IMG/VR virus record: IMGVR_UViG_3300036466_000234 | Span: 1 to 63,439 of that record | DNA from: a virus | Direction: 5' to 3' (one strand) | DNA: 63,439 nt | The notes under the pieces: model-generated | Database searches by the model: none | What the model was told of the DNA's origin: nothing | The model's input: only the letters and a program-made list of their open reading frames with translations | Program-made: the position numbers and the translations under genes | Shown: positions 607 to 60,244 of the stretch, in pieces | How the letters are laid out: the number at the start of each line of letters is the position of its first letter | Numbering within the stretch: the first letter of the stretch is position 1

Positions 607-1701
607 TTACCAAGCTAACAGGGAATGCCCTTCCCTTTTTATGTTGATAGACGCATTTACATCTCTATCGACTGTGTAACCACAATCACAAGAGAATGTA
701 CGGTCTGATAATTTCAGATTTGATTTTAGAGCACCACAAGAGGAACAAGTCTTAGAAGATGGATACCATTTATCAATCTTTATTACTTGCTTTCCTTCTA
801 GTTTAACTTTGTACTCAAGGAATGTGGTAAACATACCCCATCCATTATCAGATACAGACTTTCCAAAGTTAAGAGCCTGTGACATACCTTTCATATTAAG
901 GTCTTCAATGGCTATTGCCCCATACGTAGAAACAAGTTCTCTTGATTTCTTATGTAGAAAGTCTTTTCTCTGATTAGCTACCTTTTCGTGTAGCTTTGCG
1001 ACAATTAATCTTTGCTTATGGTAGTTATTAGAGCCTTTAACCCTCTTAGAGAGTTTTCTCTGTGCTCTAGCTAGTTTCTTTTCCATAGCTCTGTAATATC
1101 TTGGGAAATTGGCTTTCTTTCCATCTGATGATACATACAGTTCTTTCATAGAAAAGTCTAACCCTACCATATTGTCACTAGGTTGCTTTATTATCTCTAT
1201 TTGATACTCTGTAAGGATAGATATATAATACTTTCCTGTTGAAGTTCTAGAGATAGTGGCTGATTTGATTTTGTGATCTTGAGGTATAAGTCTATGGTTT
1301 ACAAAAGTAACTAATCCAAGCTTAGGAAGTTTGACCTTGTTTCCTTCAATTCTAATCGAGTTATTAACTGAATTGGTAGAATAAGACCTCTTAGGGTGTT
1401 TCTTACTCTTGAATTTAGGGAACTGTGCTCTTTTTTGAAAGAAGTTAGTAAAAGCTTTCTTCATATTCATTTGAGCATTAGCAAGAGCAAGGCTATCAAC
1501 TTCCTTTAACCAAGGAAACTCTTTCTTATACATAGCAGGAGTAAATATTTTACTCTTTCCAGTAGTTTCATAGTGAGCTTTACTATCAGCCAGCAATTTA
1601 TTGTAAATAAATCTAGCTGAACCAAAAGTTCTCTCTATAAGATTTCTTTGCTCTTGATTTGGTTTTAACCTAAATTTGTAAGCTTTGTTTAGTTTTTCCA
1701 T
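607..1701 (-). CDS. tnpB: TnpB, IS200/IS605-type RNA-guided nuclease
   Basis: A 364-residue OrfB/TnpB protein. The N-terminal helix-turn-helix region (YKFRLKPNQEQ) is followed by the split RuvC nuclease with all three catalytic acidic positions visible: GLDFSMKELY (Asp), AIEDLNMKGM (Glu) and DRDVNASINI (Asp). A zinc finger with CSSCG and CDCG lies between the last two. Length is normal for the family (about 350-400), so it looks intact and active. It starts behind AAGGAGGTG. There is no tnpA transposase nearby, so movement would need one in trans. TnpB proteins are omegaRNA-guided DNA nucleases related to Cas12 and help the element persist at its site. Confidence 0.93.
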   Translation of the reverse strand: MEKLNKAYKFRLKPNQEQRNLIERTFGSARFIYNKLLADSKAHYETTGKSKIFTPAMYKKEFPWLKEVDSLALANAQMNMKKAFTNFFQKRAQFPKFKSKKHPKRSYSTNSVNNSIRIEGNKVKLPKLGLVTFVNHRLIPQDHKIKSATISRTSTGKYYISILTEYQIEIIKQPSDNMVGLDFSMKELYVSSDGKKANFPRYYRAMEKKLARAQRKLSKRVKGSNNYHKQRLIVAKLHEKVANQRKDFLHKKSRELVSTYGAIAIEDLNMKGMSQALNFGKSVSDNGWGMFTTFLEYKVKLEGKQVIKIDKWYPSSKTCSSCGALKSNLKLSDRTFSCDCGYTVDRDVNASINIKREGHSLLAW

Positions 1702-4790: not shown

Positions 4791-5387
4791 TTATTTCTTT
4801 ATAGCGTCATACACAACAGTTCTACGACTCCATCCGTAAATAAATGCCTTATTTTTATCCCTAGCTTCTGTAATTTCAACATATCTAGCAATCTTTAGCA
4901 TTTCAAATAACACTTTTATTCTATCTACATCTTTATATTCATTCACAATTTCTATAGTATTTTTTCCTATCATGCCATCCTCAGCTAATACATCTTTTTT
5001 ATAAGCCCAATTAGTAGCCTTTTGCAATAGCCTAGCAGATGTTTTTATGCCACAATTTACCCCACAGTCATACACCATATAGCTTAATTCTTCATCGTAG
5101 ATATCATCCAACCTAAGAGTTTTCCAATATTCATTATAATATATTTCTACTGCCATTTCATAACTAAGATCGCGCATATCTCCATTATAACCATTTGCTC
5201 TAGCCACAGATTCTGTAATTCCCATAGAGGTGCAACCACCACTATCATTTATGTGATTAGAATACCCACCTTCTAGTTTAATAGTTTTTTCAATACTTTT
5301 TTTCGCCAACAAACTAATATTTGTTTTCATAAATAACATTCCTCCAATTATTAAAAAAATAAACTTATTTGTATTTTTTTTCATTAA
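4791..5387 (-). CDS. Endolysin, GH108-type muramidase with N-terminal anchor
   Basis: A protein of about 198 residues. The start MKKNTNKFIFLIIGG is chosen because AAAGAGGT lies about nine bases upstream; it provides a basic then hydrophobic segment that looks like a signal peptide or signal-anchor-release sequence. The GH108 muramidase signature follows (KLEGGYSNHINDSGG, with the catalytic Glu in EGGY, then GITE), and the C-terminal part matches the family's peptidoglycan-binding domain (YDCGVNCG, DGMIGKNT). It would cut peptidoglycan at lysis. GH108 lysins are typical of Gram-negative phages. It lies far from the tail genes. Confidence 0.82.
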   Translation of the reverse strand, partial: LMKKNTNKFIFLIIGGMLFMKTNISLLAKKSIEKTIKLEGGYSNHINDSGGCTSMGITESVARANGYNGDMRDLSYEMAVEIYYNEYWKTLRLDDIYDEELSYMVYDCGVNCGIKTSARLLQKATNWAYKKDVLAEDGMIGKNTIEIVNEYKDVDRIKVLFEMLKIARYVEITEARDKNKAFIYGWSRRTVVYDAIKK

Positions 5388-5591
5388 AATATACCTCTTT
5401 AAAACATTCCAAATATCCTCCAAATTTATTTTTTGGAATATATTTATTGCGTCTATTTATATTATGATATTCAACTTCTAAATTTATAGCATTATATAAA
5501 TCAGTATCTATTAAATCTAATATTTTAAAATTATACCCATTAACATTTCTATAATACTAACATTATCTATCATTACCACACCACCCATATA

Positions 5592-5800: not shown

Positions 5801-6079
5801 CTATTCTTCTATTTTTTCTAATACTATATTTTTAATATTACCTTCTATTCTACTAATATATTTTAACAGATCGGAAAGAGTTTGTGCTTCATCGCATGAT
5901 TCATTTATATATTCCTTAGATATTCTAGTAGCTATGCCATCTAAATCTCTGAAATATCCTCTAAATGTCCATGCCACTTTTTCCTCTCCATCTTTCTCTG
6001 TAATAGATTTTTCTGATAACACAATATTTAAATTATCCTTTCTGTCAATTTTCCACTTATCAAATAATATTACCGACAT
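5801..6079 (-). CDS. Conserved phage hypothetical, DUF5405-like
   Basis: A 92-residue protein (MSVILFDKWKIDRKDNLN) with a strand-rich first half, an aromatic WTFRGYFRDLDGIATRI segment and a helical C-terminus. This arrangement resembles the small phage family DUF5405, in which a W-x-YH-like motif precedes helices. Its ATG follows directly on the stop of the upstream gene, so the two are coupled. Function unknown. Confidence 0.55.
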   Translation of the reverse strand: MSVILFDKWKIDRKDNLNIVLSEKSITEKDGEEKVAWTFRGYFRDLDGIATRISKEYINESCDEAQTLSDLLKYISRIEGNIKNIVLEKIEE

Positions 6080-6241
6080 TTATACTCCCCCTTTAAATTT
6101 ATCGCACGCTGGATGTTCTAATGTATTTTGCATATCCTTTTCCACATGATTATAATAACACAATTCATAATGTTTGCAATCTCCACAGCAATTTCCTACT
6201 TTAATTGCATCACCGTAAAACCATCTTAGAAATTTATTCAT
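6080..6241 (-). CDS. Cys-rich 53-residue protein
   Basis: A small gene (MNKFLRWFYGDAIKVGN) behind AGGAGGTTTA, overlapping the stop of the upstream gene. Five Cys and a His (GNCCGDCKHYELC and HPAC) make a zinc- or iron-cluster-binding protein plausible. Similar short Cys-rich proteins with a C-x2-C-x-H-x3-C pattern are frequent in phage early regions, with no known function. Confidence 0.6.
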   Translation of the reverse strand: MNKFLRWFYGDAIKVGNCCGDCKHYELCYYNHVEKDMQNTLEHPACDKFKGGV

Positions 6242-23695: not shown

Positions 23696-26191
23696 TTAGT
23701 CTGAATGTATTCCACACTGCCCTACCTCTTTTAATAATCCCCATGTATAATTCATTTCATATAGCACAGCAACGCTCTTCTCCCCATACCTACTCTTAGC
23801 GATGTTCATAACTAGATATTTCTTAGTTGGGTCTAATGTAATATACTCTTGATGATACCCCTTCCCATCATCATTCAGTTTCCACTTATAAGGCTTAACG
23901 TCATATTTTTCACCTGTATATTCGTTGTCATATAACTGTCTACAAGCTAAGATAATGTCTAATACCTCTGCAATAGATTTAGCCTCAGATAGAATCGACT
24001 CATCCAATCCTCTCTTCTGCACTTCCTTATGCCTAAGGGCTGTTTGATATGTAGCGAAGCAATTTATATCCAATGTCCTGCAAGTTTCATATATCCTTCT
24101 AGAACTGTCTATCAACTCTCCTCTAACATTATCACTAGATGGGTTCTCGGATTTGTACGTGTCTAGAAATACGTGCCTAACCCCTCTGTAAGCATATCTA
24201 CGCACTATAGATAAGAACTCACTAACTGTATACTTATTAGCCTTTTTGAATAATATTTTATCTTTATAATGCTCATCAATATATTGCCTAGCTTTTTCTA
24301 TCATAATTTCCTGTTCGGGACTAAATTCTCCCTTAGATAAATCATTTCTGTTCAACTTCCAATAATTAAATTTTAAACATAGCGTTCTGACTAGTAGAAG
24401 CTCTTGTATTTGATGCTCTTCTGATTCATTACAATATAATAGCACAGGTTCACCTAAATCAACAAAACTCATGGCTATTTGATTAAACATTATGGTAGAA
24501 TTATGAGTTACAATAAAGTCATCTGTAATGTATAATCCACTAGGATTTGTTGTTTCTATACATTGCATTTCTACATCGTACCCTAGATCAATTATCTCTT
24601 TAAAATGATGCCTTTGCTCTAAATATTTATTGGATTCTTTATATCTACTTGTATGTTTTGGACTAGTAAAAAATCTATCTTGTCCAGCAACATGCTTTAT
24701 TGATATATTATAACATACACCCGATGTGTATTTTTTACTTCTAGGGTCAACTCCATATTTAACACTATACCCCAAACTTCTACATAACCATATCATATCA
24801 TCTTTTAATCTAGTTGATGTTGTTGTATACATTAGATTCGATATAGTTTTGCTTGCACACCCATCGCAATCAAACAAACCTCTCAATAATTCTAATCTAT
24901 CTTCCTTGCTTGCATATAAATATTCTTTAGGGATAAATTTATCATAACTCTTTACTTTTAATCCCATTGCTTTAATATGCTGATTTAATATATTTTTATT
25001 TCTTAAATGATCGTTATGTTTTATAGAATACCTATAATTGTCACCTTTTTGTTTTTTTACATGGTAATCTTCGGGTATTAAACTTTTAACTTTATTTACT
25101 ATATATTCTTCATCGGTACTAAAAGTCACTGTATTGCCACTTAGATGCCCATCTGCTATTAATACTCCTAATAGATATGGAGGAATAGGCAACTCTTTCT
25201 TGTCAAATTCAATAGGGTTATTTTTCTGTATATATCTATTCGTATACTTAATATTCATTATATCCCTTAATTCACGAGTTTGATATTTTTTACGTTTACT
25301 ATCGCTTACATTCCACAGATGTTTATCATTGCATATAGTTTCCGCTCCATCTGAGAATTTAACTTTAAATGCCCTTAGCCTCCCCTGTGGCATTATGTTT
25401 TTAACTTTATATAACTTACCGTCTTCACCATATATCTCAGTTCCAACTTTTAACTCCCTCATCTCTTTGAAGCCATCTCTAGTTAAAACTTTTGCATCTA
25501 ATGGTTGTGCTTTTCCAGAGTTAGTTACTGATGTCAACAGGGAAAAGTTACTCATGTGCAATCCTAGAGTTGTATTAGAAATCATCCTTAGTCCATCATA
25601 TGGAGTTCCCAATTTTTTCTTTTCTCTTAAATCTTGCAGAAACTGATCGGTAATGGATATGGATTGCACGCCTGTATCCGACACATTATTCTTTCTGATC
25701 TCATTAACTTTGAAGTCAACATATGAAGATAATTCGTCTTGGCTCATAATTACTGACATATTCTCCAACTTCTCTTGCAACTCTATTGTCAATTTATATG
25801 TATCTAGTGCAGAATTGCTTGTAGAAAAGTCTGACAGATATGTATTGAAGTTTGTAGGATTAATCTCTTTCTCTAAATTCTTAATGGTTTGATACCCATT
25901 GCATTTAATAAACTCCCCTCTTAGTATTTGTGAGTTAGACAATACCGTATCTATAATAGATAAATCTACCTCACTAGCACCTTTTTCATACACTTTATGC
26001 AATACTTCGAATAAAACCTTGCCCTCATCTGTAAGCATACTACTAGCCTTGATTCCCGAACAATTTAGAAATAGAGATAAATCACTAGCCAAACAACCTA
26101 TCAATTTACCTTCTATATTAGCTCTGTTGGAAGTTAAATTTTCGGGATATGTTTTTAACTCCCCCTTTGTTGTTATGAAATTATAACTCAT
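23696..26191 (-). CDS. DnaB-type replicative helicase containing an intein
   Basis: An 831-residue precursor; removal of the intein (24500-25510) leaves about 494 residues, normal for DnaB. N-terminal helical domain about 1-165, linker, then the RecA-like motor. The P-loop SVTNSGK is split from STIMFNQIA by the intein. Downstream, EPVLLYCNES, RHVFLDTYKS (Walker B) and CFATYQTALR (sensor) are visible. Start ATG at 26191 follows AAAGGTGAG and overlaps the methylase stop. It would unwind the phage fork together with primase. Confidence 0.85.
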   Translation of the reverse strand: MSYNFITTKGELKTYPENLTSNRANIEGKLIGCLASDLSLFLNCSGIKASSMLTDEGKVLFEVLHKVYEKGASEVDLSIIDTVLSNSQILRGEFIKCNGYQTIKNLEKEINPTNFNTYLSDFSTSNSALDTYKLTIELQEKLENMSVIMSQDELSSYVDFKVNEIRKNNVSDTGVQSISITDQFLQDLREKKKLGTPYDGLRMISNTTLGLHMSNFSLLTSVTNSGKAQPLDAKVLTRDGFKEMRELKVGTEIYGEDGKLYKVKNIMPQGRLRAFKVKFSDGAETICNDKHLWNVSDSKRKKYQTRELRDIMNIKYTNRYIQKNNPIEFDKKELPIPPYLLGVLIADGHLSGNTVTFSTDEEYIVNKVKSLIPEDYHVKKQKGDNYRYSIKHNDHLRNKNILNQHIKAMGLKVKSYDKFIPKEYLYASKEDRLELLRGLFDCDGCASKTISNLMYTTTSTRLKDDMIWLCRSLGYSVKYGVDPRSKKYTSGVCYNISIKHVAGQDRFFTSPKHTSRYKESNKYLEQRHHFKEIIDLGYDVEMQCIETTNPSGLYITDDFIVTHNSTIMFNQIAMSFVDLGEPVLLYCNESEEHQIQELLLVRTLCLKFNYWKLNRNDLSKGEFSPEQEIMIEKARQYIDEHYKDKILFKKANKYTVSEFLSIVRRYAYRGVRHVFLDTYKSENPSSDNVRGELIDSSRRIYETCRTLDINCFATYQTALRHKEVQKRGLDESILSEAKSIAEVLDIILACRQLYDNEYTGEKYDVKPYKWKLNDDGKGYHQEYITLDPTKKYLVMNIAKSRYGEKSVAVLYEMNYTWGLLKEVGQCGIHSD
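24500..25510 (-). mobile_element. Intein with LAGLIDADG endonuclease in helicase P-loop
   Basis: A 337-residue intein runs from AQPLDAKVLTRDGFKEM to GLYITDDFIVTHN, followed by extein Ser. It has Hedgehog/Intein blocks (block A with Ala as first residue; TH of block F and His-Asn of block G before +1 Ser) and both LAGLIDADG motifs (LLGVLIADGHL and LLRGLFDCDG). Ala1 means the standard first N-S shift cannot occur, so splicing would use the alternative class 2/3 route. Insertion is between Lys and Ser of the Walker A motif. Confidence 0.9.
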
Positions 26192-26895
26192 TCGCACTCA
26201 CCTTTATATATGAATAATTTTTCTACACCTTTTTTAGCACCTGTGTTTTTAGTCAAGCTACTAACTATTTCTTTTTGCCACACACATTCAAAATCATCGG
26301 GTGCATTATATTCACTTATGAACACTTGATGGCCTTCTTTGGACTTAACTCTGCACCACTCCCAAAACTCATCATGGTTAAAGCTATCTTTGTATTTAGT
26401 AGTATTGGCATATGGTGGATCGCAATATATAATAGAATTATTAGGGATGTCTAATTCGTTATATTCACTATGAACAAATTCTACACCTTGTAATAATTCG
26501 GATTGTTTTGTGGCACTTCTGTAAGCCTCTGCTACATAATCTCTCTTCCCTTTTTTATCTCTACGCCATCCACCAAACCATTTCCCTCCATAAGACAAAG
26601 CAAATCCATAATATCCTTTTAATGCCTTATTATTACTATTTTTAGCAAATTTATATTCTAATTCATTAGTTTCAGTATTATCTTTAGGAATGATTGTAAT
26701 ATTATCCCTAATCAATTTTAACGCCTCTATTAAATATTCATTACAATCAGCACCTATTCTATTTTCTTCAACCTTATCAATCATATTAGCACCACCAACA
26801 AAAGGTTCTACATACCATTGACCTTCTTTTCTATCTTTTAATATAATCGGTAAAATATGTCTTGCTATTCTATTCTTACTCCCCATGTATTTCAC
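26188..26895 (-). CDS. DNA adenine methylase (Dam-like, D12 class)
   Basis: A 235-residue N6-adenine methyltransferase. MKYMGSKNRIARHILPII is the typical N-terminal SAM-binding start, YVEPFVGGANM the FxGxG motif I and YCDPPYANTTKYKD the catalytic DPPY motif IV. No restriction partner is adjacent, so it is an orphan methylase that probably protects phage DNA or marks replication origins. It sits in the replication operon just upstream of the helicase, with a four-base overlap. Confidence 0.9.
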   Translation of the reverse strand: MKYMGSKNRIARHILPIILKDRKEGQWYVEPFVGGANMIDKVEENRIGADCNEYLIEALKLIRDNITIIPKDNTETNELEYKFAKNSNNKALKGYYGFALSYGGKWFGGWRRDKKGKRDYVAEAYRSATKQSELLQGVEFVHSEYNELDIPNNSIIYCDPPYANTTKYKDSFNHDEFWEWCRVKSKEGHQVFISEYNAPDDFECVWQKEIVSSLTKNTGAKKGVEKLFIYKGECE

Positions 26896-41717: not shown

Positions 41718-43202
41718 ATGAATAAGTATACTGATGAACAATTAGCAATAATAAATAGCAATGAACCTGTTATAATCGGAGAAGCGGTAAGTGGAAGCGG
41801 TAAATCTAGCACTGCTATTGGGTTTGCAGAGGTTAGAAAAGATAAAAAAATATTATATTGTGTATTCAATTCTAGTATGAAAAAAGAGGCAGAGTGTGAT
41901 TTTAAACATCTTCCCAACGTAACTGTAAAAACCACACATGGTTTAGCATATGCTAAATTTGGGAATAAATATAAAAATAAATTATTAAGAGGAAATTATA
42001 GAGTTGCAGATGTTATAAGTGATTTAAGATTAGGAAAGAAAGATTTTGAGTTTGCTAGTCAAATATTGGAAATATATGAGTATTATTTAACTTCCGATTT
42101 TCATTCGCTAGACGAAGCGGTGGATTCTAGGTATAAAAATGACACCACCATGAAGAAGAATTTAATAAAATATGCTAATAAGTTATGGAAGAAGAAAGAA
42201 GATGTGAATAGTGGTGTGGGGATTGAGCATAACTTTTATCTCAAGTTGTACCATTTGTCCAAACCAAACTTAGGTGACGTATATGACGTTCTTATCGCAG
42301 ATGAGTCACAAGATCTGAATCGGTTGTCTATCAATTTGATTGAAAATGCTACATGTAAACAGAAACTCGTAACTGGGGATTCTCGCCAACAAATTTATTC
42401 TTGGAATGGTGCAAAGAACGCACTTAACAGAATTGAAGGTGTTAGATATGCTTTATCTAACTCATTCAGAGTGGGACAGAGAACTGCTGAAATTTGCAAC
42501 TATATCTATAAAGAATTTCTCAATGAGGATTTAGATATGAAAGGCTTGAATGAAAATCACAACATATACTCTCACAAAAGCCTTGACATCCATTCTAAGA
42601 GTGGTATAACAGTCATCTGTAGGAGAAACTCAACTGTGCTTGCAAATGCTCTAGAATCGGCTGAGAGAGGTCGTAGAATCTATTTTATAGGTGGCATTAG
42701 AGGATATAAATTAGATTTATATAGATCGGCATATTATTTTATGGTGACAGGAAAAACAAAAGAGCCAATGCTATCTAAATTCTCATCATGGAGGGAGATG
42801 GTGGAATGTGCAGACGAAACAGATGATGTTGAATTAAATACTTTAATTAATATTGTCAAAACTTATAATAAGAAAATCCCCGATGGTGTGGAAAAAATTA
42901 AAGAATATACTGTCAATAAAATGAGTGAAGCGGACATTATACTCACCACAGCTCATAAGTCTAAAGGCTTGACTATTATGGGAGAGGGCGTGGTATTAGA
43001 AAAAGATTTAATTAACCTATGTGAGTTAAAGGAGGCTATCACATCTATGGCATATAGTGGCGATTTAGAAAATGCCATGAAATATCTTGAAAGCCATAGA
43101 GAAGAGTTAAATTTACTATATGTAGCACTTACTAGGTCAAAGACAAATCTGTATTTAAATGATGATATTATACAATATTTAAGGGGGGTAAAATGGAGCT
43201 AA
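41718..43202 (+). CDS. UvrD/Rep-family DNA helicase
   Basis: A 494-residue superfamily 1A helicase. Motif I GEAVSGSGKSST lies near residue 20; motif II VLIADESQDL, motif III GDSRQQIYSWNGA, motif IV LSNSFRVGQRT, TTAHKSKGLT (motif V) and the C-terminal LLYVALTRSKTNLYL (motif VI) follow in order. It is shorter than host UvrD, with reduced accessory domains. It would unwind DNA 3'-5' in phage replication or recombination. It follows AGGGGTGGGT. Confidence 0.9.
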   Translation: MNKYTDEQLAIINSNEPVIIGEAVSGSGKSSTAIGFAEVRKDKKILYCVFNSSMKKEAECDFKHLPNVTVKTTHGLAYAKFGNKYKNKLLRGNYRVADVISDLRLGKKDFEFASQILEIYEYYLTSDFHSLDEAVDSRYKNDTTMKKNLIKYANKLWKKKEDVNSGVGIEHNFYLKLYHLSKPNLGDVYDVLIADESQDLNRLSINLIENATCKQKLVTGDSRQQIYSWNGAKNALNRIEGVRYALSNSFRVGQRTAEICNYIYKEFLNEDLDMKGLNENHNIYSHKSLDIHSKSGITVICRRNSTVLANALESAERGRRIYFIGGIRGYKLDLYRSAYYFMVTGKTKEPMLSKFSSWREMVECADETDDVELNTLINIVKTYNKKIPDGVEKIKEYTVNKMSEADIILTTAHKSKGLTIMGEGVVLEKDLINLCELKEAITSMAYSGDLENAMKYLESHREELNLLYVALTRSKTNLYLNDDIIQYLRGVKWS

Positions 43203-43933
43203 TAAAAGTTGAAATAAATGAAAAAGGTGAACAGTTAGTCAGCGGAAGAGAATTGCATAAATTTTTAGAAAATACCGAAAGGTTTAGTTCTTGGTTTAAC
43301 AGACAATTAGCATATGGCTTTGAAGAAGATGTGGATTATGTAGGGTGTAAAACTTTTAACACCCTTGCAAATACTGAACTACAGGACTATATTATTAAAA
43401 TTAGTATGGCTAAAGAAATATCTATGATACAAAGAAATGAGAAAGGCAAGCTCGCTAGAAAATATTTCATTGATTGTGAAAGGCGATTGTTAGAAGTGGA
43501 TAAAAAGAAAATGCTGTTAGCAGACTTATTCGATGATGACAAAATGGTGGTTGTAAATGCTCATAAGAAATTAGTTGAAATAGAAAAGCAACCCTTATTG
43601 GATAAAATTGAAATAGATAAACCTAGAGTTGAATTTGCAGAAACTATAGAGAGGTCATCCGATAGTATTTTAGTAAGAGACGTGTCTAAAATATTAGCAA
43701 ATGAGGGGATTAAATTTGGTGAGAAGAAATTATATGCTTGGCTTAGAGAAAATAGTTTAATTGAAAAGTGTAAAAATATTCCTACTCAAAAAGGAATAGA
43801 TTTGGGGTTGTTTGTTGTCATAGAGAGTGTATACAATACTGCATACGGAAAGAAGATATCATTCACACCTAAAGTTACAGGCAAAGGTCAAGTGTATATC
43901 GTTCAAAGAATAAAAAAGGAGTTTCAAGCATAA
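43193..43933 (+). CDS. AntA/AntB-type antirepressor
   Basis: A 246-residue protein. Residues about 12-85 form the AntA/AntB domain (SGRELHKFLENTERFSSWFN, then YIIKISMAKEISMIQ and KARKYFIDCERR-like end). The C-terminal part from about 130 matches a KilA-C/ANT domain (SILVRDVSKILANEGIKFGE). Such proteins antagonise repressors or regulate phage lytic genes. It overlaps the helicase by ten bases and is the last gene before the RNA locus. Confidence 0.85.
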   Translation: MELIKVEINEKGEQLVSGRELHKFLENTERFSSWFNRQLAYGFEEDVDYVGCKTFNTLANTELQDYIIKISMAKEISMIQRNEKGKLARKYFIDCERRLLEVDKKKMLLADLFDDDKMVVVNAHKKLVEIEKQPLLDKIEIDKPRVEFAETIERSSDSILVRDVSKILANEGIKFGEKKLYAWLRENSLIEKCKNIPTQKGIDLGLFVVIESVYNTAYGKKISFTPKVTGKGQVYIVQRIKKEFQA

Positions 43934-43980
43934 AATTGTATTTATTTTGTTATATTATACAACATTTGAGGGATTGAGTT

Positions 43981-44029
43981 TTGTCACTACTGAATCGGTA
44001 TCTATATATGTGAGTCGACTGAGTTGACT
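43981..44029 (+). repeat. Copy A of 49-bp diverged repeat
   Basis: 39 of 49 bases match 48838-48886, starting TTGTCACTAC and ending GAGTTGACT. In copy B the final TTG is the likely start of a real gene; here it opens only a 23-codon frame. This copy looks like the displaced and decayed leader of that gene. Confidence 0.65.
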
Positions 44030-44051
44030 CCTCATCTCTCTTTTTCATATA

Positions 44052-44110
44052 TCCTTTTTAAATCGCTTGGGGTAGCTAGCGTAAAAAGGATTTGTATATT
44101 CTAGCTACCC
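44052..44110 (+). other. Two overlapping inverted repeats before RNA promoter
   Basis: Hairpin A: TCCTTTTTA and CGCT (44052-44067) with AGCG and TAAAAAGGA (44078-44090). Hairpin B: GGGTAGCTAG (44070-44079) with CTAGCTACCC (44101-44110), 10 bp perfect. The loop of A holds part of B, so the two cannot form together. They lie between the antirepressor gene and the promoter at 44134, perhaps as terminator or operator sites. Confidence 0.55.
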
Positions 44111-44133
44111 ACCCCTTAAAAAATAATTTTTAC

Positions 44134-44162
44134 TTGACTTTTTTTCATTAACATGTTATAAT
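44134..44162 (+). promoter_or_regulatory. Strong sigma-70 promoter of RNA locus
   Basis: TTGACT, 17-nt spacer, TATAAT with extended -10 TG on the plus strand. It predicts a start near 44169 and no protein-coding gene follows for about 550 bp, so it drives the structured RNA and possibly the terminase operon by read-through. Confidence 0.85.
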
Positions 44163-44202
44163 TAATTTGTTCATTTGAATCACCTCCTAATATATATAGT
44201 TG

Positions 44203-44243
44203 CTCCATTTAAGGGATGATGGAGGGTAAAATTGGCATCCCTT
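44203..44243 (+). ncRNA. Predicted H-type pseudoknot
   Basis: Stem 1: CTCCAT (44203-44208) with ATGGAG (44219-44224). The loop of stem 1 holds AAGGGATG (44211-44218), which pairs perfectly with CATCCCTT (44236-44243) as stem 2. Connecting loops are 2, 0 and 11 nt, ideal for coaxial stacking. If stem 2 formed alone it would be a hairpin followed by TT, so a switch is also possible. Confidence 0.6.
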
Positions 44244-44250
44244 TTCATAT

Positions 44251-44325
44251 AGGTGAGTTACCCAAATGGCAGGGTTCAGATAAAATTGATTATCTGTGGT
44301 GGAGGTTCGATTCCTTCCTCGCCTT
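44251..44325 (+). tRNA. tRNA-like element, non-canonical anticodon arm
   Basis: Acceptor AGGTGAG/CTCGCCT (7 bp with one G-U), U8, D-arm ACCC/GGGT with the AAATGGCA loop containing the invariant GG, and T-arm GGAGG-TTCGATT-CCTTC are all tRNA-like. The anticodon arm is 20 nt (CAGATAA/TTATCTG, 7 bp, 6-nt loop; or 5 bp with 8-nt loop) and the variable loop only 4 nt, so no clear anticodon with U33 can be placed. CCA is not encoded. It is probably a tRNA mimic rather than a decoding tRNA. Confidence 0.45.
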
Positions 44326-44670
44326 TCATTAAAATCATATAGTGGTTATTTGTAATATGGTAGGGGAATTAATCCTTACGCCCACTTGTGAGTATAAGTT
44401 GTCACTGTAGGGAATATTGCAACTATAAATAAGTATATGTCAGACTCAAGTCGCCTGTAACAAGGAACTCCCTCATAGAAAGACTTTGTGGTAACAAAAG
44501 ATAACTTGGTGAGAGTATGTCACGTAACCGACCACCAACGAAATGCTATTCGGATGGTTAAAGCACCCTCCTGTGGGCGTTAAAAAATATAACAGGAAAA
44601 TGCTCAAGGCAAAGAGTGAAAAATAAGTCCAACCATCAATATTAACATAATAATCGAATACAGGAGTAAT

Positions 44671-44697
44671 GGCTGAGTTTATTGCTCAGTCTTTTTT
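44671..44697 (+). terminator. Intrinsic terminator of the RNA
   Basis: GGCTGAG pairs with CTCAGTC (7 bp with one G-U, 7-nt loop), followed by TTTTTT. It ends the structured RNA and lies 23 bp before the small terminase start. Confidence 0.8.
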
Positions 44698-44719
44698 ATT
44701 ACACTATAAAGGAGGATAT

Positions 44720-45475
44720 ATGGGAAAGTTAAGCAGTAGCAGAGCATCGGAAAGGAAATATCAGAGGTTTTATTTAAGCAAGGATGAAGTTCCATTAAAT
44801 AATGTAGCACCATTAATAATTTATGAGAAGCCCGACAATCCATTAACTATCAATAGTTTGAGGGGAATTAACTACCAAGCTGTATCAAAAGAAAAGTTGG
44901 CACACAATCTAATATTTCAATGGCATGTGGAAGAATCTCTAAGAAGGGAAATGGCACACGAGAGGATTCGTAGCAATATCCTAGCTAGAAGAATGATCGA
45001 GAATGGATTAAATGCAGAGTTAGAAATTGATGAAATTAAAGAATATGAACAATCTTTTGCTACATCAATAAAGGATAGCATAGATATGGTTATGGAAAAT
45101 GCTCCTAGAGATATTCGTGAAGAAATTCTCACAAGAGTGAAAAATGAAATGGCTAAAGTATCTATGGAAATAAAGCAAGACTATGAATATAACTTATTCA
45201 GAATTGATACTCAATTAGCATACCTAGATTCGCTTATGGCAGATGTTGTTAGTTCTCAAGACAGAAGGATTCCATTAAAGGAGAAGACTAGCATAATGCA
45301 GAGACTTGCTAAAGAGCAAAGAGAAGCTATTAAAATGAAGAAGGAAATATTGCAAGATATGGGTGTAAATTTGAAAGAGTTGGGCAAAAGCCAAGAGATT
45401 AAGGATGATAGAATTGGAGGAGAGGAAGTTAGGAAGTATGGAAAGGTGAACTTATCTTCTCTTAGAGGTGATTAA
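44720..45475 (+). CDS. terS: Putative terminase small subunit
   Basis: A 251-residue protein starting MGKLSSSRASERKYQRF with an ideal AAAGGAGGATAT site; an upstream in-frame ATG at 44669 is less likely because it lies in the terminator. The protein is highly helical and basic, with no clear motif. Assignment rests on its position directly before the large terminase and its size. It would recognise the packaging start on phage DNA. Confidence 0.5.
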   Translation: MGKLSSSRASERKYQRFYLSKDEVPLNNVAPLIIYEKPDNPLTINSLRGINYQAVSKEKLAHNLIFQWHVEESLRREMAHERIRSNILARRMIENGLNAELEIDEIKEYEQSFATSIKDSIDMVMENAPRDIREEILTRVKNEMAKVSMEIKQDYEYNLFRIDTQLAYLDSLMADVVSSQDRRIPLKEKTSIMQRLAKEQREAIKMKKEILQDMGVNLKELGKSQEIKDDRIGGEEVRKYGKVNLSSLRGD

Positions 45476-46228: not shown

Positions 46229-46397
46229 GTAATTAAAATAATAGTTACGTAACTTGGTGAACCTATAAATATAGGGTGTCATGTATGCACATGGCTAACG
46301 GTTTCCCCTTCGGTAACGATGATTGCTATGGCGACATAGTGGGATGTAAGCGAGCCTAAGTCCTACGGGATATGGTAATACCGTGCTGTTAATCTAT

Positions 46398-46426
46398 TTG
46401 ACAATATTATAAAAATATGTTATAAT
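46398..46426 (+). promoter_or_regulatory. Consensus promoter inside terL intron
   Basis: Perfect TTGACA, 17-nt spacer, TATAAT, with extended -10 TG, about 125 bp before the GIY-YIG gene. It would let the endonuclease be made independently of terminase transcription. Confidence 0.75.
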
Positions 46427-46552
46427 GTGTCAATAGAGGAAGAGTGTAACGACTAAATTATATCAATATAGAATGATATAGAGACCGACAGGATGAAATG
46501 CCTGTTGGGTAGTGCCAAGTAACTCCCTCTAAAATATAATTTGGAGGTAATT

Positions 46553-47567
46553 ATGGATAGATTTACAAAAAGGTGTTTATTGTATTAAAAATATAAAAAA
46601 TAATAAGGTGTATATAGGCTCTTCGAAAACATGCATTAGGGCTAGATGGATTAAACACAAATCTAAATTAAAGAATAATATACACCACTGTTTGTCAATG
46701 CAAGATGATTATAATAAAAATGGAATAAATATATTAGAGTTCGTTTTATTAAAAGATATGACTGACAGCAAATATTCCAATGATGACATATTAGATTTAG
46801 AACAGGATTATATAAATAAATACGAATCTTATAATTCTAAATATGGATATAATAATGCCCCTACATCAAGAGGTGGTAATTCTAATAATTGGAAAGTTGG
46901 CGTTTATAACAATAAAGGCGAGTTGATTGAAGTCCTTACAAGTCGTAGACAAGCTACAATAAAATATGATTATACTGGCACTACTAAAAATATAGAATAT
47001 AACCTTGATGGGCATATTAAAAAAATTTCTAATATAGGATATGTTTTTGTTGGCTATTATAAAGACGATAAGGTTATTAAGAATATCTTAGTAGAAGATG
47101 AAAGTGTGAATGATGTTTATTTGTACGATATATTAAATGATTGTGTTATTAAAAGGATTGGAAATAATATAGAATATAAAAATTTTTTAGAGGAAAATGG
47201 GAAGTCGAGAGATAATTCAAGACAAGCACTTGTTAATAATAGTGTTATTAAAGGCACAAACGGTTTAACGTATGTAGAAAAAAAGAATTTTCACATAGTT
47301 AGAAAAAATAATAAAGACTTAATGTGTTTGTGTTGTTTTGATTTAAATGGAAATTTACTTTCTATTGATTTATCTAAAAGTTTTTCTGGTGAGAAATTAG
47401 GATTGTTGCCAGACTCTATCAATTCTTGTTCGCAATCAAATAATTTAAAAAAATATAAAAGAAAAATGAGAACCTATAAAAGCTATATATTCCAACATTT
47501 TAAATTATCTGAAATTCCAAATAAAATAAACCCTTTAAATGGAAACATAATAGAGTTAAAGAGATAG
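46553..47567 (+). CDS. GIY-YIG homing endonuclease, start region frameshifted
   Basis: The nuclease motif is complete in one frame: GVYCIKNIKNNKVYIGSSKT, then RARWIKHK (Arg) and DLEQDYINKY (Glu); the long C-terminal part has helical DNA-binding repeats (TSRRQATIKYD, IEYKNFLEENGKSRDNSRQA). The ATG at 46553 behind TTGGAGGTAATT reads MDRFTK and then goes out of frame at a run of five A (46567-46571). One A fewer would join both parts. Without this, translation could only begin downstream at a GTG (46608) and would lose the GIY strand. Confidence 0.75.
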
Positions 47568-47613
47568 TCTAGTCCGACTCTTAAATGAGTGTTAAAGTAT
47601 TGCGAAAGCAACG

Positions 47614-59633: not shown

Positions 59634-60244
59634 TAACCTTAAAAGCATACCAAAAAGATAGTGAAGGATTATCTTCTTCACTCATTTCCACCCTCTATTT
59701 GAGAGGTGTGAAAAGTTTGAATGTAGAAAGGCAAGCTAAAGCTTCAACTAGAAGGTCTGAGGTTGGATATGAATATACAGATAATATGAGCTTGCAATCA
59801 AATAAAGTTGCAATAAGTGGCTATGTTTCTGATATAAATAAAGATGATAATGGAAATTGGACAGCAGAAGAATCATATATAGATGGAATAGAGAATAGCC
59901 TCATATCTATATATGAAAATAAATACTTTTGTGATGTATATGATGGCAAACGTGGAAAGGTTTATTCAAATTATATAATACTAGACCTAAGCATATCTGA
60001 AAAATCTGAATCTACTAAAGGTTTTGAGTTTTCTATGAACTTGCAAGAGGTTAGATTTAGCACAATAGGAATAACAAAATACATAGTGAATACAGAAAAA
60101 GGTGGCCCATATTCTAGTGGAAATAATAAAAGTGGTTCTACTAAAGATGGCAAAACTATGGATGGGAAGACTTCTATCGCTGGTACTGCTGTTGGTGGCT
60201 CGGAAGGATTTCTCGGAAAATTTATTGTGGGGAGTAGTGATTAA
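59630..60244 (+). CDS. Baseplate/tail hub-associated protein
   Basis: A 204-residue protein (MITLKAYQKDSEGLSSSLIS), ATG overlapping tape-measure stop. Residues 1-145 are strand-rich (KVAISGYVSDINKDDN), the C-terminus is a Gly/Ser/Lys-rich flexible tail (GNNKSGSTKDGKTMDGKT). Position suits a tail-tip or LysM-less hub adaptor. Function unproven. Confidence 0.5.
   Translation: MITLKAYQKDSEGLSSSLISTLYLRGVKSLNVERQAKASTRRSEVGYEYTDNMSLQSNKVAISGYVSDINKDDNGNWTAEESYIDGIENSLISIYENKYFCDVYDGKRGKVYSNYIILDLSISEKSESTKGFEFSMNLQEVRFSTIGITKYIVNTEKGGPYSSGNNKSGSTKDGKTMDGKTSIAGTAVGGSEGFLGKFIVGSSD

Follow-up and report, generated by a model that had tools for sequence, protein, structure and literature searches.

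The window analysed here, an IMG/VR record of 63,439 bases from an uncultured phage, with a GC content of 32%, seems to contain an independent non-coding RNA gene just ahead of its DNA-packaging genes, with a transcript that is predicted from the signals flanking the interval. Two further viral contigs, L003 and L004, carry a counterpart of the gene downstream of the interval and served for comparison. The features of the locus are, by position in the window:

43193–43933, + strand, antirepressor gene, with AntA N-terminal and ANT/KilAC C-terminal domains (Pfam) and a PHROG anti-repressor match of 189 bits
43963–44112, + strand, conserved leader, 95% identical in L003 and ~73% in L004
44051–44110, + strand, H-type pseudoknot of the leader (10+10 bp), with S1 at 44051–44060/44082–44091 and S2 at 44070–44079/44101–44110
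44134–44162, + strand, sigma-70 type promoter, TTGACT-17-TATAAT with TG before the -10 (extended -10), 11/12 consensus
44169–44699, + strand, predicted non-coding RNA of ~530 nt between promoter and terminator, longest ORF 44 aa
44211–44263, + strand, weak hairpin (44211–44218/44236–44243) with a possible loop pairing, 4/100 shuffles as good
44251–44325, + strand, tRNA-like domain (cloverleaf), Rfam tRNA RF00005 at 37.5 bits, gathering 29
44277–44296, + strand, abnormal 20-nt anticodon arm of 7 bp with a 6-nt loop
44566–44597, + strand, possible small pseudoknot, CCC/GGG plus TCCTGT/ACAGGA with an A-rich loop, within chance
44671–44699, + strand, intrinsic terminator, stem 44671–44691 plus T tract, folding z -3.0
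44720–45475, + strand, conserved gene in the small-terminase position, 81–89% identical in L003 and L004

The initial annotation had proposed that the gap between the antirepressor and the packaging genes holds a separate RNA gene, part of which is tRNA-like. The sequence signals support this part of the proposal, as does a comparable RNA region that L004 has at this locus. The promoter at 44134 and the terminator at 44671 were both borne out, as was the coding-free stretch between them, since no ORF on either strand of the interval exceeds 44 aa, which also rules out small hidden genes. The gene at 44720–45475 has no Pfam or PHROG match; we infer that it is the small terminase from its position before the large terminase only, and the large-terminase PHROG matches downstream of it are weak.

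Folding of the interval and the ROOL and GOLLD models

The same annotation had placed the RNA among the relatives of ROOL and GOLLD, a kinship that the covariance models did not recover. Neither the ROOL model (RF03087; 574 positions, gathering 99.1 bits) nor the GOLLD model of the conserved 3' region (RF02032; 416 positions, gathering 150 bits) gave a match in the interval at E≤10. ROOL was not found in the window, L003 or L004 records, in a search where the control genomes gave no positive control match either, and the only GOLLD match across the records scored 11.2 bits and lies elsewhere, at 59662–59708. The RNA region of L004 matches neither model, and membership was rejected on these searches of the interval, its L004 counterpart and the records.

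The unusual long-range GC-rich helices described earlier were not seen either, as the minimum free energy (MFE) of 44160–44700 is -128.6 compared with -123.2 ± 6.8 for shuffled sequences (z -0.79), and that of 44327–44670 gives a z of 0.0. Inside the interval the best candidate is the hairpin at 44211–44243, whose GGGTAA loop could pair with 44258–44263 in the D arm of the tRNA-like domain, and it is borderline; a very strong pseudoknot does exist at 44051–44110, but it lies upstream of the promoter.

ROOL RNAs are characterised by a homo-octameric cage and an elaborate fold with multiple pseudoknots, and the interval folds at the z-score given above with its best internal pseudoknot equalled by 4 of 100 shuffles. 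The window RNA resembles ROOL in length (~530 nt compared with 574 model positions), in its phage location and in having a tRNA nearby, and it resembles GOLLD in being a large phage-encoded RNA; it differs from both in matching no model and showing no structure above chance, and it is shorter than GOLLD. It is therefore very improbable that the window RNA belongs to these families or is a cage-forming machine working alike: size, phage location and the tRNA-like part speak for it, and the linkers of GOLLD sometimes hold tRNAs (PMC12286853), but no model matches in the interval or in the L004 RNA region, folding z-scores are near 0, and the L004 counterpart is unlike it in both length and sequence.

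A tRNA-like domain with an abnormal anticodon arm

The tRNA-like cloverleaf that had been noticed from the sequence was confirmed by its Rfam tRNA score, which exceeds the gathering threshold. This match, with an E-value of 3.8e-6 in a 901-base search (43900–44800) and of 2.7e-4 over the whole window, is the only credible Rfam match of the entire window, where the default whole-window scan missed it; ARAGORN makes no tRNA call there. Folded alone, 44251–44325 adopts the cloverleaf as its MFE structure (z -2.2) with all four arms, acceptor, D, anticodon and T, paired. The 7-nt anticodon loop on a 5-bp stem is absent, and its place is taken by a 20-nt arm. Like phage tRNA genes (RF00005), the domain has a cloverleaf, a T loop, an acceptor stem and a score above gathering; unlike them, it lacks the 7-nt loop, lies inside a longer predicted transcript and escapes ARAGORN.

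L004 carries a tRNA-like domain of 44.7 bits that also folds alone into a cloverleaf, and in each of the two records the domain is the single cmsearch tRNA match. The arms read CAGATAA-AATTGA-TTATCTG in the window and AGCTGTC-GGCACA-GGCGGTT in L004, each of 20 nt with 7 bp and a 6-nt loop. As neither has a 7-nt anticodon loop, neither domain could decode normally. That two unlike sequences share the same deviation at the same place argues for function over decay, although two are few. A decoy for a tRNA-anticodon nuclease is disfavoured, since the normal anticodon loop is missing, and for the same reason acceptor-end or whole-tRNA binders would be the likelier targets of a candidate decoy.

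The cloverleaf could alternatively be a processing device, cut by RNase P and RNase Z so that a carrier transcript releases or stabilises regulatory phage RNAs, the released pieces being the 80-nt 5' and the 345-nt 3' segments. An intact acceptor stem and T arm next to a non-decoding anticodon arm would suit such a role, as would the position of the tRNA-like domain ahead of a functional element in L004 too. We consider this distinctly unlikely, because the flanking pieces have no structure above chance and because, in models of the full transcript, the anticodon hairpin is stable but the acceptor helix competes with other folds.

The leader and the slot in three phages

In all three phages a leader is sited at the 3' end of a helicase gene; that of the window contains a hairpin (~44010–44033) in addition to the H-type pseudoknot. 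No shuffle out of 100 folded as well as this pseudoknot in the window, in L003 or in L004. Its S2 helix pairs GGGTAGCTAG with CTAGCTACCC in the window and GGGTGGTGG with TCACCGCCC in L004, so that by hand comparison three pairs are altered on both sides. S1 has a T/A run of 5/5 in the window and of 4/4 in L004. The leader matches no Rfam family at E≤10. Since the pseudoknot lies upstream of the RNA promoter, it would not be part of the RNA transcript; our guess is that the leader may influence, in cis, how transcription enters the packaging operon, for instance through terminator read-through.

The arrangement around the leader varies. In L003 the helicase gene leads directly into the leader (~140 nt), followed by ~60 nt without the RNA, the terminator and the downstream gene; the terminator matches that of the window with altered stem pairs, and both the RNA and its promoter are missing. 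In L004 the order is leader, a 12/12 promoter, ~1.07 kb of non-coding sequence, an antirepressor gene, a Tad2-like gene, the terminator and the downstream gene. The antirepressor of L004 differs from that of the window in its N-terminal domain, and that of the window sits after the UvrD-like helicase gene and before the leader, a place where L003 has none; an apparent decayed copy of the helicase 3' end precedes the window leader. The Tad2-like gene of the L004 cargo slot is placed as follows:

L004 3663–3953, Tad2-like gene (PF11195, Thoeris anti-defence 2-like), 84.6 bits

The non-coding region of L004 holds, besides the tRNA-like domain, a 6A RNA (46.7 bits, gathering 41.2) and a tRNA-Trp-like element called by ARAGORN. 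A comparison of the window RNA with the L004 RNA gave a local score of 27, below the shuffled median of 32, so that sequence homology between them was rejected, and the two differ in length too.

Leader and terminator thus stay the same while the cargo that they enclose is exchanged. The terminator, which precedes the next gene also in phages without the window RNA, is a property of the site and not of the RNA. This bears on a further proposal, in which the interval would act in cis as a 5' leader or attenuator for the packaging operon, with the promoter at 44134 driving the downstream genes and read-through regulating the terminator. The constant terminator before the gene in all three phages and the compensating changes in the leader would fit, but L003 keeps leader and terminator without the RNA or its promoter, so that the RNA is not needed for a cis role, and in L004 two genes separate the RNA from the terminator; we give this proposal little credence.

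The main rival regards the interval as a relic, either neutral or decaying: a tRNA would have been captured, its anticodon arm would have lost its geometry, and it would now lie in non-coding filler that remained as cargo came and went, with a promoter and a terminator that serve another purpose or none. Folding at the level of chance, the failure to find relatives of the RNA, its absence from L003 and the debris of gene turnover, such as the decayed helicase copy before the leader, all agree with this. Against it stand the tRNA score above gathering with all four arms paired, the same abnormal arm in L004 and the near-consensus promoter directly upstream in both phages, and we regard the relic as somewhat unlikely.

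6A RNA, TenpIN loci and a possible decoy role

In order to read the L004 cargo, the 6A family itself has to be understood. A 6A-core scan returned two loci (L011 and L018) in which two 6A-type units and a terminator precede an ORF called TenpIN toxin by NCBIfam (121–132 bits), and six more loci with 6A and a TenpN homologue were found in bacterial genomes (L060, L070, L091, L094, L111 and L134); the homologues were recognised by NCBIfam and missed by Pfam and PADLOC. Because 6A units stand before TenpN toxin genes, 6A (Rfam RF02925) is the TenpI antitoxin RNA, the repeated antitoxin unit in type III toxin-antitoxin loci of the TenpIN kind. We did not find this stated in the literature searched, which did not include the original 6A description; it would give an orphan RNA family a function.

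Solitary 6A units occur in phage contigs, namely L026, L032, L040, L041 (1399, + strand), L017 (1384–1434) and L004 (2587–2638), and in the first four the unit sits in a short gap with a structural-type gene on each side. No TenpN gene was found in the records of the window, L003, L004, L017, L032 and L041, some of which are fragments. To our knowledge, phage RNA decoys against RNA-based bacterial defences have come mainly from laboratory escape mutants such as that of phi-TE with its pseudo-ToxI. The toxin-less units in phages suggest natural antitoxin mimicry, and together with an RNA slot adjoining an anti-Thoeris-like gene they suggest that phages keep decoys as standing equipment. Phage phi-TE is known to escape ToxIN by such antitoxin mimicry, with its pseudo-ToxI (PMC5086642). 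As a separate observation, by eye, L017 shows at 1430–1670, right after its 6A unit, what looks like the acceptor and T arm of a tRNA, interrupted by an insert of ~150–190 nt.

Taken together, we infer with a probability of about 0.4 that an autonomous RNA gene occupies the interval as cargo (a "moron") in a slot for counter-defence, and that it would be transcribed and would likely act as a decoy or mimic. The slot would lie between the conserved pseudoknotted leader and the terminator preceding the packaging genes; host RNA polymerase would transcribe the gene from 44134 to ~44699; the 5' part of the RNA would form a tRNA-shaped domain unable to decode normally; and the RNA would engage a host RNA-binding effector, with the tRNA-like domain as the decoy itself or as a module protecting, stabilising and processing the transcript. 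In favour of this reading are the promoter and terminator, the tRNA model match, the shared 20-nt arm and the state of L003, which keeps leader and terminator without the RNA. A counter-defence role is suggested because in L004 the slot is occupied by an RNA region with a mimic of the TenpIN antitoxin: behind a 12/12 promoter follow a tRNA-like domain, the 6A unit and the Tad2-like gene. 6A stands beside TenpN elsewhere, no TenpN was found in the six phage records named above, and the pseudo-ToxI mimicry of phi-TE (PMC5086642) is a precedent. The site thus resembles a place where anti-defence tools are kept more than one that houses the known ROOL/GOLLD RNAs.

The step from a shared slot and a shared odd tRNA-like domain to a counter-defence decoy is one of analogy and is taken tentatively. 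No 6A match was obtained for the window RNA at E≤10 (43900–44800) or at its site in the record scan, and 6A was rejected there; no other known antitoxin was detected. An antitoxin-like pseudoknot at 44566–44597 was rejected as within chance of shuffles, and antitoxin-like tandem repeats in the 3' part were rejected because self-similarity falls under the shuffled median. The likeness to 6A RNA and to pseudo-ToxI thus resides in the same-slot RNA of L004, which has a 6A unit without a toxin gene, and the window RNA differs in lacking a detectable 6A unit, other antitoxin motif or tandem repeats; a TenpN gene is likewise not adjacent to the window RNA, but a mimic would not have one. Also against the favoured reading are the lack of sequence similarity between the window and L004 RNAs, the folding of the interval at chance level, the presence of a comparable RNA in one relative only (L004), and the antirepressor in the slot, which is not a counter-defence gene. 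A broader proposal, a new class of phage counter-defence RNAs joining a non-decoding tRNA-like domain to exchangeable decoy modules, is unlikely in our judgement; such a class would hold a TenpI antitoxin mimic in L004 and another module in the window, in a slot by the packaging genes behind a pseudoknotted leader.

Searches for further relatives covered several parts of the locus. The large terminase, used on viral and bacterial genomes, gave no further relatives, the leader returned L003 and L004 only, and the tRNA-like domain returned no relatives. Three matches to a 3' motif all lie inside ORFs and were taken as chance, similar DNA in phages and plasmids amounted to short chance matches, and the 345 nt after the cloverleaf, which lack a detectable antitoxin motif, had no relatives among the collections searched.

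Several other insertions were seen in these genomes. The large terminase gene of the window (46237–47588) is interrupted by a GIY-YIG endonuclease ORF, with no Rfam intron match, and that of L004 has two short insertions (5139–5491 and 5838–6126), whose scores as group I introns, 22.7 and 17 bits, are below threshold. Two helicases show insertions that look intein-like by eye, the DnaB-type one in the window (23696–26197) and the UvrD-like one in L003 (1243–3750). Finally, the window encodes at 607–1701 (- strand) a TnpB-type protein with OrfB_IS605 and Cas12f1-like TNB domains.
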